Source: Crassaminicella thermophila (lineage in GTDB: Bacteria; Bacillota; Clostridia; Peptostreptococcales; Thermotaleaceae). From it: a DNA stretch of 64,000 nt. A model generated the notes under the pieces. That model saw only the letters and a program-made list of their open reading frames with translations. It made no database searches and was not told where the DNA came from. The translations under genes were made by a program, and so were the position numbers. Positions within the stretch are counted from its first letter, which is position 1, and every line of letters begins with the position of its first letter. The stretch covers positions 1,307,026-1,371,025 of the forward strand of contig NZ_CP042243.1 of assembly GCF_008152325.1 (NCBI RefSeq), written 5' to 3'. This document shows, piece after piece, positions 17,060 through 48,559 of the stretch.

Positions 17060-17263
17060 ATGCCAAATACAAATAGTAAAGTTGTTCCTGAAGCAAAAGC
17101 TGCATTAAATCAAATGAAATTTGAAATTGCAAATGAATTAGGATTAAGTAATTATCAAACAATTGATAAAGGAAATTTAACTGCTAGACAAAATGGTTAT
17201 GTAGGAGGATACATGACTAAGAGATTAGTTGAAATGGCTGAAAGACAAATGTCTGGTAAATAA
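17060..17263 (+). CDS. Small acid-soluble spore protein, alpha/beta type
   Basis: A 67-residue DNA-coating protein of the spore core that protects DNA from UV and heat. It contains the germination-protease site KFEIANELGL near residues 21-30 (cleavage after Glu) and the DNA-binding motif ARQNGYVGGYMTKRLVEMAE near the C-terminus. Both segments match the family almost exactly. It has a strong site, GGGAGGTG, before the ATG, its own probable forespore promoter and its own terminator, so it is a single-gene unit. Its presence indicates a spore former. Confidence 0.97.
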   Translation: MPNTNSKVVPEAKAALNQMKFEIANELGLSNYQTIDKGNLTARQNGYVGGYMTKRLVEMAERQMSGK

Positions 17264-17269
17264 TATATA

Positions 17270-17312
17270 AATAATAAAGAAGAGATAGTTTTATCTCTTC
17301 TTTATTATTTAT
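17270..17312 (+). terminator. Terminator of the spore protein gene
   Basis: An 18-bp perfect stem (AATAATAAAGAAGAGATA and its complement) with a GTTT loop, T-rich on its 3' arm. Confidence 0.85.
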
Positions 17313-17334
17313 ATATGGCGAAATTTAAATTCAT

Positions 17335-17364
17335 AAAAAAATACTGGTGATTAATCACCAGTAT
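17335..17364 (-). terminator. Intrinsic terminator of the csfG-like RNA
   Basis: A 10-bp perfect stem (ATACTGGTGA / TCACCAGTAT) with a TTAA loop at 17341-17364, followed on the reverse strand by at least six T. The orientation is decisive: on the forward strand no T run follows. Confidence 0.8.
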
Positions 17365-17419
17365 CGGGAGAGGAGAAATGAAGGAAGAGCTCTAAGGGGA
17401 ATTGTATTTTATGTGTTTA
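17335..17419 (-). ncRNA. csfG: Probable csfG sporulation small RNA
   Basis: No protein is supported here, but the reverse strand holds a complete small-RNA unit: a forespore-type promoter at 17426-17455, a pyrimidine-rich stretch, and a 10-bp hairpin with a T run. The expected transcript is about 85 bases. In B. subtilis the forespore RNA csfG lies in the gap before ylbH, which is rsmD; this unit is also directly upstream of rsmD. Its unpaired stretch contains CTTCCTTC and TTTCTCCTCTCCC, complementary to a Shine-Dalgarno plus AUG. Identity with csfG is inferred from position, promoter and architecture; I could not align it to the known family. Confidence 0.6.
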
Positions 17420-17425
17420 TATATT

Positions 17426-17455
17426 TAATATGCCTAAAAGTTGTAGTTATTATAC
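17426..17455 (-). promoter_or_regulatory. Sigma-F/sigma-G type promoter of the csfG-like RNA
   Basis: Reading the reverse strand, GTATA (17451-17455) matches the GHATR -35 pattern exactly. CATATTA (17426-17432) lies 18 bases further on and matches CATWMTA at six of seven positions. A GG precedes the -10 box, a feature favoured by sigma-F. Confidence 0.65.
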
Positions 17456-17541: not shown

Positions 17542-18096
17542 GTGAGAGTAATTGCAGGTTCATCAAAAGGTATGAGATTAAAAGCACCAAAAGGATTAGA
17601 TACGAGACCAACTACAGATAGAGTAAAAGAAGCTATTTTTAGCATGATAAATCCATATATTATGGATAGTATTATATTAGATCTTTTTGCAGGAACTGGT
17701 AGTTTAGGTATTGAAGCTTTGAGTAGAGGAGCAGAGAAAGCCTATTTTGTAGATAATAATAAAAATAGTATAAAAATAATAAAAGAAAATGTTGAGCATA
17801 CAGGGGTTAAAGAAAAAAGCACAATATTATTTGGTGATGTACAAAAGCTAATCAAGGAATTGGCTTCAAATAGAATTAGGTTTGACATTATATTTATGGA
17901 TCCACCTTACTTGAAGGGACTAATTATACCGTCTATTGATATTATCGATGCTGAAAATGTATTGAATAAGGAAGGGATAATTGTAGTAGAACATGATTTT
18001 AAAGATATATTACCTAAATGTGTAGGGAGATTTATAAAATTAAAAGAAAAAAAATATGGAAAGACATTAATATCTATTTATTCAGAGGAGGAATAA
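17542..18096 (+). CDS. rsmD: 16S rRNA guanine-966 N2-methyltransferase RsmD
   Basis: Methylates G966 of 16S rRNA; the B. subtilis name is ylbH. The 184-residue protein opens [17 protein letters not shown], followed by [15 protein letters not shown], the SAM-binding [19 protein letters not shown] and the catalytic FMDPPY near residue 118. The start is GTG behind AAAGGAGAG; an overlapping ATG four bases earlier is in another frame. It lies 2 bases before coaD, the conserved ylbH-coaD pair. Confidence 0.95.
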
Positions 18097-48324: not shown

Positions 48325-48370
48325 AGTTATAAAATTCTAAGAAATATTACAAAAAATAAATATGAAATTT

Positions 48371-48559
48371 GAGGAGTAGTAGATAGTGAGTCTTTTTAAG
48401 AGAGTCGGTGGGTGGTGTGAATCGACAAAGATAACTTTTGAACTTGCCTCACATTGCATAGGTTAGTTACCTTTAAAAACTACTAAAGAGGACATAACAA
48501 TGTCAATTAGGGTGGTACCGCGGGGAATTCCTCGTCCCTATTTGGGACTAGAATTTTTC
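48371..48559 (+). promoter_or_regulatory. T-box riboswitch sensing uncharged tRNA-Leu
   Basis: The leader of leuS has the T-box core AGGGTGGTACCGCGG (48509-48523), the AGTAG and GAGAGTCGGTGGGTGGTGTG elements of stem I, and a competing terminator (AATTC-CTC-GTCCC pairing with GGGAC-TA-GAATT, then T; 48526-48559). The probable specifier is CTT at 48443-48445 in TGAACTTGCCTC, a Leu codon, fitting leuS. TGGT in the core would pair with an ACCA tRNA end. Confidence 0.92.

Follow-up and report, generated by a model that had tools for sequence, protein, structure and literature searches.

A predicted minimal form of the sporulation RNA csfG upstream of rsmD in Crassaminicella thermophila: conserved pyrimidine blocks and a family-specific linker

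We analysed a 64-kb stretch of the Crassaminicella thermophila genome (64,000 nucleotides, hereafter the window), in which a small intergenic element lies between a spore protein gene and rsmD. The features of the locus are as follows.

17060–17263, plus strand: gene for an alpha/beta-type small acid-soluble spore protein (SASP; PF00269, 93 bits), convergent with csfG
17335–17365, minus strand: intrinsic terminator hairpin GAUACUGGUGAUUAAUCACCAGUAUU and U-run
17336–17420, minus strand: predicted CsfG sRNA of ~85 nt without a 5′ hairpin, its start placed from the -10 box and its end from the terminator
17366–17378, minus strand: pyrimidine block B, UUUCUCCUCUCCC, adjoining the terminator and largely unpaired in every architecture
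17379–17381, minus strand: linker UCA, host-family-specific (phylum consensus CCGG)
17382–17389, minus strand: pyrimidine block A, CUCUUCCU, conserved at ~90% or more per position in loci outside the host family
17396–17399, minus strand: CCCC block (C-rich region 1), conserved in alignments A1/A2
17426–17455, minus strand: sigma-F/sigma-G promoter, with -35 GTATA (17455–17451), an 18-nt spacer and -10 CATATTA (17432–17426)
17542–18096, plus strand: rsmD, for the 16S rRNA m2G966 methyltransferase (TIGR00095, 172.6 bits, over the cut-off), divergent neighbour

The SASP gene ends in a 20-bp hairpin (17266–17313) that faces csfG, and a convergent SASP gene was found no more than 0.9 kb from csfG at 54 of 198 related loci. 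Farther along the window, a T-box leader was matched at 48363–48542 on the plus strand (RF00230, 107 bits).

The first-pass annotation had placed a probable csfG RNA at 17335–17455 on the minus strand, with a near-consensus sigma-F/G promoter, an intrinsic terminator and no protein. The minus strand indeed carries no open reading frame of note, and the promoter, GTATA-N18-CATATTA, matches the consensus at 11/11 positions; when both strands of the window were scanned, it was the sole promoter match with the canonical 18-nt spacer. Perfect 11/11 promoters were found at 72 of 194 related loci (37%) versus 0.15% of upstream regions after shuffling; 139 of 194 loci scored at least 10/11, versus 4.5% of the shuffled regions. 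Transcription is predicted to start ~6 nt downstream of the -10 box and to yield AUAAACACAUAAAAUACAAUUCCCCUUAGAGCUCUUCCUUCAUUUCUCCUCUCCC, followed by the terminator, an 11-bp hairpin and T7 at 17365–17335 on the minus strand, which directly follows the pyrimidine core. Because the predicted RNA itself covers only ~17420–17336, the originally assigned coordinates span the promoter plus the RNA. The predicted fold (-14.9 kcal/mol, z = -4.4; 0/200 shuffles equally stable) consists almost entirely of the terminator and leaves the pyrimidine stretch unpaired.

Northern blots in Bacillus subtilis detected a transcript only on the strand opposite the ylbH leader; that RNA is CsfG, and it co-purifies with Hfq (PMC3574147). 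B. subtilis CsfG is controlled by sigma-F/G and restricted to the forespore, has no known target (PMC9147052, PMC8216469), and is classed together with RoxS and FsrA, two C-rich RNAs (PMC8216469, PMC4409812). With CsfG of B. subtilis as described in PMC3574147, PMC8216469 and PMC9147052, the window element shares the locus divergent from rsmD/ylbH, the sigma-F/G promoter, a C/U-rich single-stranded core and an intrinsic terminator. The window copy differs in its length of ~85 nt, in having no 5′ hairpin, in its linker, TCA instead of CCGG, and in reading CCCCTTAG where B. subtilis CsfG has CCCCATAAG.

The locus itself is conserved: the element is intergenic and divergently oriented beside rsmD (ylbH) in the window, and a divergent rsmD lies upstream of csfG in 191 of 217 homologous loci, several of the other 26 being contig ends or loci with coaD alone. 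The core, the promoter and terminator, the divergent rsmD next to it and its occurrence together with sigG lead us to infer that the minus-strand element at 17335–17455 is an ortholog of csfG, a known sporulation RNA, in minimal form. In the covariance-model search proposed as a check, RF00516 ("ylbH leader") was the sole credible Rfam match; it covered the same DNA element at 17333–17416 with 32.2 bits, below its gathering score of 50 and on the plus strand, and Rfam 15 yielded no csfG family match on the correct strand. In RF00516 the element is modelled as a leader that acts in cis and lies on the opposite strand, and the window copy lacks the 5′ hairpin. Clostridial csfG copies score below the RF00516 gathering score.

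Other small RNAs of the Bacillota resemble csfG in part. RoxS/RsaE and FsrA likewise have C-rich stretches that are unpaired and can base-pair with Shine-Dalgarno (SD) sequences, but their promoters and regulons are not those of csfG. Bvs196 of B. velezensis, encoded between hinT and ecsA, is a forespore sRNA under sigma-F/G like csfG; it differs in its length of 294 nt and in its locus, and by position is no csfG homolog (PMC9147052).

By nucleotide search among relatives of the host, 14 genomes of the host family, the host included, proved to carry the element. RF00516 at a lax threshold gave matches in 110 of 199 sampled Bacillota genomes, from which 7 weaker matches without the core at the fetched place were discarded, and a model built on sequence alone from 40 cores matched 98 genomes at E < 1e-4. 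By presence of the forespore sigma gene, csfG was found in 98 of 173 sigG-positive genomes, leaving 75 without a match, and in 0 of 26 sigG-negative genomes (Fisher p = 5e-9, an optimistic value because the genomes are interrelated, but csfG is clearly missing from all the sigG-negative ones). csfG is restricted to endospore formers in this sample, and the host genome carries sigG. A pattern scan of named genomes added Alicyclobacillus, Brevibacillus, Halobacillus, Thermoactinomycetaceae and others, as well as Thermotalea metallivorans, a culturable relative whose csfG has the form seen in the window. Two assemblies carried two core matches each (G107, contigs C4 and C18; G166, contigs C122 and C147), either a duplication or an assembly artefact.

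Within the order of the host, the model search confined csfG to the host family. The other families have rsmD and show no csfG core upstream of it (loci L346–L368); csfG was either lost there or kept by the host family alone. Four weak model matches elsewhere in the order (L252–L255) were unlike csfG and were discarded. One genome, G294, has as its only weak model match (E 0.003) a start region, GAGGAGAAACCGAAGGAGG (L252, ~1500–1520), that comes near the phylum mirror of the csfG core and is not a csfG gene. Outside the Bacillota, a match in a Bacteroidetes MAG (L182) was dismissed as a low-complexity chance match, and two loci in Acetobacteraceae and Desulfovibrio MAGs (L140, L141), which have rsmD and coaD beside csfG, look like misbinned Bacillota contigs. 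Searching IMG/VR with the exact core pattern gave no phage-borne csfG.

The pyrimidine stretch of the window copy, TCTTCCTTCATTTCTCCTCTCCC, lies at 17388–17366 on the minus strand, and its reverse complement contains GGGAGAGGAGAAATGAAGG, as the first-pass annotation quoted. Comparison across relatives, which that annotation had proposed as a check, found the block nearly invariant, contrary to the outcome that it had named as a refutation. The core consensus, CCcataaGCUCUUCCUCCgGUUUCUCCUCUCCC, has ~25 positions that are at least 90% identical across 177 loci outside the host family, a figure inflated by the fact that part of this set was fetched by an exact core pattern; loci derived from RF00516, with no such selection, gave the same core. 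Blocks A and B of the window copy align with the phylum set, and the linker between them differs. It reads TCA in 14/14 host-family copies, 1 nt shorter than CCGG; elsewhere it is CCGG (149 loci), CCAG (13), TCAA (7) or one of several rarer forms. The linker accommodates substitutions and the loss of 1 nt, and the pyrimidine blocks on either side of it barely change. TCAA, found in families f61 and f80, looks like an intermediate, which one further deletion would turn into TCA. Two architectures of csfG are predicted, a long one with a 5′ hairpin that pairs block A and a short one without it. Judged by folding prediction, host-family csfG is an extreme short form, made of unpaired blocks and a terminator with a changed linker; both blocks have unpaired probabilities above 0.7 throughout.

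Our preferred account of csfG, in which we place roughly even confidence, takes it as a forespore RNA of sigma-F/G that would repress selected mRNAs in the manner of RoxS and FsrA, its C-rich antisense sequence forming short pairings with SD regions. It starts from a promoter, a nearly invariant C/U-rich core predicted to be unpaired, a terminator, a constant genomic position and an occurrence limited to sporulators, all of them established at the level of sequence. RNA polymerase carrying forespore sigma-F and sigma-G would make csfG, and the transcript would end at the intrinsic terminator. The RNA would then act in trans: short seeds in block B (UUUCUCCUCUCCC), aided by block A and the CCCC block, may pair with the purine-rich SD regions of selected forespore mRNAs, and such pairing would block ribosome loading.

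Pairing was computed on 864 kb (28%) of the host genome, with starts taken from a simple ORF caller and not from curated annotation. The core gave a mean duplex energy of -15.3 kcal/mol at 766 start regions versus -10.3 kcal/mol in gene interiors. In this target prediction, which the first-pass annotation had proposed as a check, the start bias does not exceed what pyrimidine-rich cores give after shuffling, 13 of 40 such cores being as start-biased over the same 28% of the genome, and it singles out no specific target. The longest exact complements at starts were 12 nt (one gene), 11 nt and 9–10 nt, and gene interiors also held one 12-nt match. Exact 9–10-nt complements of block B, GAGGAGAAA(T), occur in three start regions of host contig C1 (~343183, 357541 and 359678; L299–L318), which we take, by their N-termini, to be the two copies of tuf and fusA. 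For longer complementarity, the 22-nt mirror of the core was searched in 14 host-family genomes and its 23-nt counterpart in 40 other csfG-bearing genomes, allowing up to 3 mismatches. No second site that agreed with the 22-nt mirror at 19 or more positions, or with the 23-nt mirror at 20 or more, recurred in these 54 genomes. A single conserved target of this kind was accordingly rejected, the one site found, in G060, being unrelated and having 3 mismatches.

An unlikely but serious rival is that CsfG mainly binds protein, its invariant C/U-rich strand docking or titrating a forespore KH-domain, cold-shock or Hfq-like protein, with base-pairing secondary. Near-invariance of an unpaired 25 nt across a phylum would be unusual for an RNA whose mRNA partners change; the linker varies between constant blocks A and B, as expected of two binding sites; and the 54 genomes held no long complementary partner. 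The co-purification with Hfq in B. subtilis (PMC3574147) points the same way. Against it, the presence of hfq does not track csfG: among sporulators, hfq was found in 83 of 98 genomes with csfG versus 61 of 75 without it (p = 0.68), and 15 csfG-bearing genomes have no hfq match. Hfq is therefore at least not an obligate partner, and dependence on Hfq was rejected for want of a phyletic association. Protein binding stays a serious rival because the conservation is extreme in a stretch that, energetically, any pyrimidine-rich sequence could replace.

It is less probable, and in our view rather improbable, that CsfG is a general decoy or mask for SD sequences, whose mass pairing would lower translation of most forespore mRNAs near dormancy. 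Block B does resemble the 16S anti-SD, hardly any start region fails to pair with the core, and expression in B. subtilis is reported to be high and forespore-restricted (PMC9147052, PMC8216469). However, the equal performance of 13 of 40 shuffled cores leaves the base-by-base conservation of 25 positions unexplained, disruption of csfG reportedly causes no obvious sporulation defect (PMC9147052), and 75 genomes with sigG have no csfG match. We are slightly more doubtful of the broader proposition that CsfG is a phylum-wide, forespore-restricted anti-SD mimic that globally masks SD sequences, with the hairpin-free form of the host family as its minimal functional version.

The idea behind the first-pass annotation, that the unpaired stretch mirrors SD and AUG as one unit and that csfG would hence cover both at its targets, now appears very unlikely. 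The mirror is less than the "ideal Shine-Dalgarno" with start codon that had been claimed: its AGGAG is separated from the ATG by 2 nt, and a spacing of 7 nt is reached only by the weaker GGGAG. The linker yields an ATG on the plus strand at 17378–17380, and an ATG opposite the linker is present in 14/14 host-family copies versus 0/178 loci elsewhere. Other families carry an ATG opposite CCCCAU in 145 of 178 loci, with GGAGG mirrored 8 nt upstream. Both observations could be read in favour of such a unit, but the two ATG positions differ, and the linker ATG is missing from all 178 loci of other families. Swapping the linker to TCAA or CCGG, the forms found across the phylum, shifts the mean start-region energy by no more than 0.5 kcal/mol, and no gene start in the genomes searched matches the whole mirror. 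With the AUG complement at the linker confined to the host family, the linker variable, no recurring mirror site and generic pairing, the SD-plus-AUG mirror is not the feature that selection keeps, and SD-directed action is still plausible. On these alignments the pyrimidine blocks are kept and the AUG complements shift or disappear; the mirror is an accident of the host family. Of the translation-block mechanism first put forward, the part that stands is SD-directed action, made plausible by conserved pyrimidine blocks that resemble an anti-SD, and the part that falls is the AUG complement, found in the host family only.

Hardly tenable is the reading of the conserved DNA as a plus-strand cis leader of rsmD, as in the Rfam ylbH leader, perhaps encoding a leader peptide whose start would be the mirrored ATG: RF00516 does score on the plus strand, where most families have an SD-like GGAGG and an ATG, but the promoter and terminator of the window copy read the minus strand, as does the U-run, and the B. 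subtilis northern blots detected the csfG strand only (PMC3574147). For B. subtilis the leader reading thus counts as refuted. The plus-strand reading frames from the ATG opposite CCCCAU have a median of 15 aa and are not conserved, and therefore encode no leader peptide; on these grounds together both leader and leader peptide were rejected. Equally remote is pairing of CsfG with 16S rRNA and direct action on ribosomes, for which AAACCGGAGGAAG, the exact complement of CUUCCUCCGGUUU, gives a 13-nt exact match in genomes such as G197: it is rejected because changes in 16S and csfG do not compensate, the host family (16S AACTCGG, csfG UCA) and f80 (16S AACACGG, csfG UCAA) having changed both without restoring pairing, G095 and G169 having an altered 16S but retaining CCGG, and G208 and G182 retaining the 16S with an altered csfG. 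The best match in the host 16S is 10 nt, which 9% of shuffles reach.

Rfam 15 keeps csfG on the wrong strand, as the cis-regulatory "ylbH leader" RF00516, and genome annotations that label the element as an rsmD leader inherit this error. The minimal 85-nt form separates what csfG can dispense with, namely the 5′ hairpin, the linker sequence and the CAU complements, from what is kept, blocks A and B and the terminator, so that mutational tests can be narrowed to ~20 bases. A partner of CsfG, if found, would reveal the means by which the forespore controls translation or RNA turnover.
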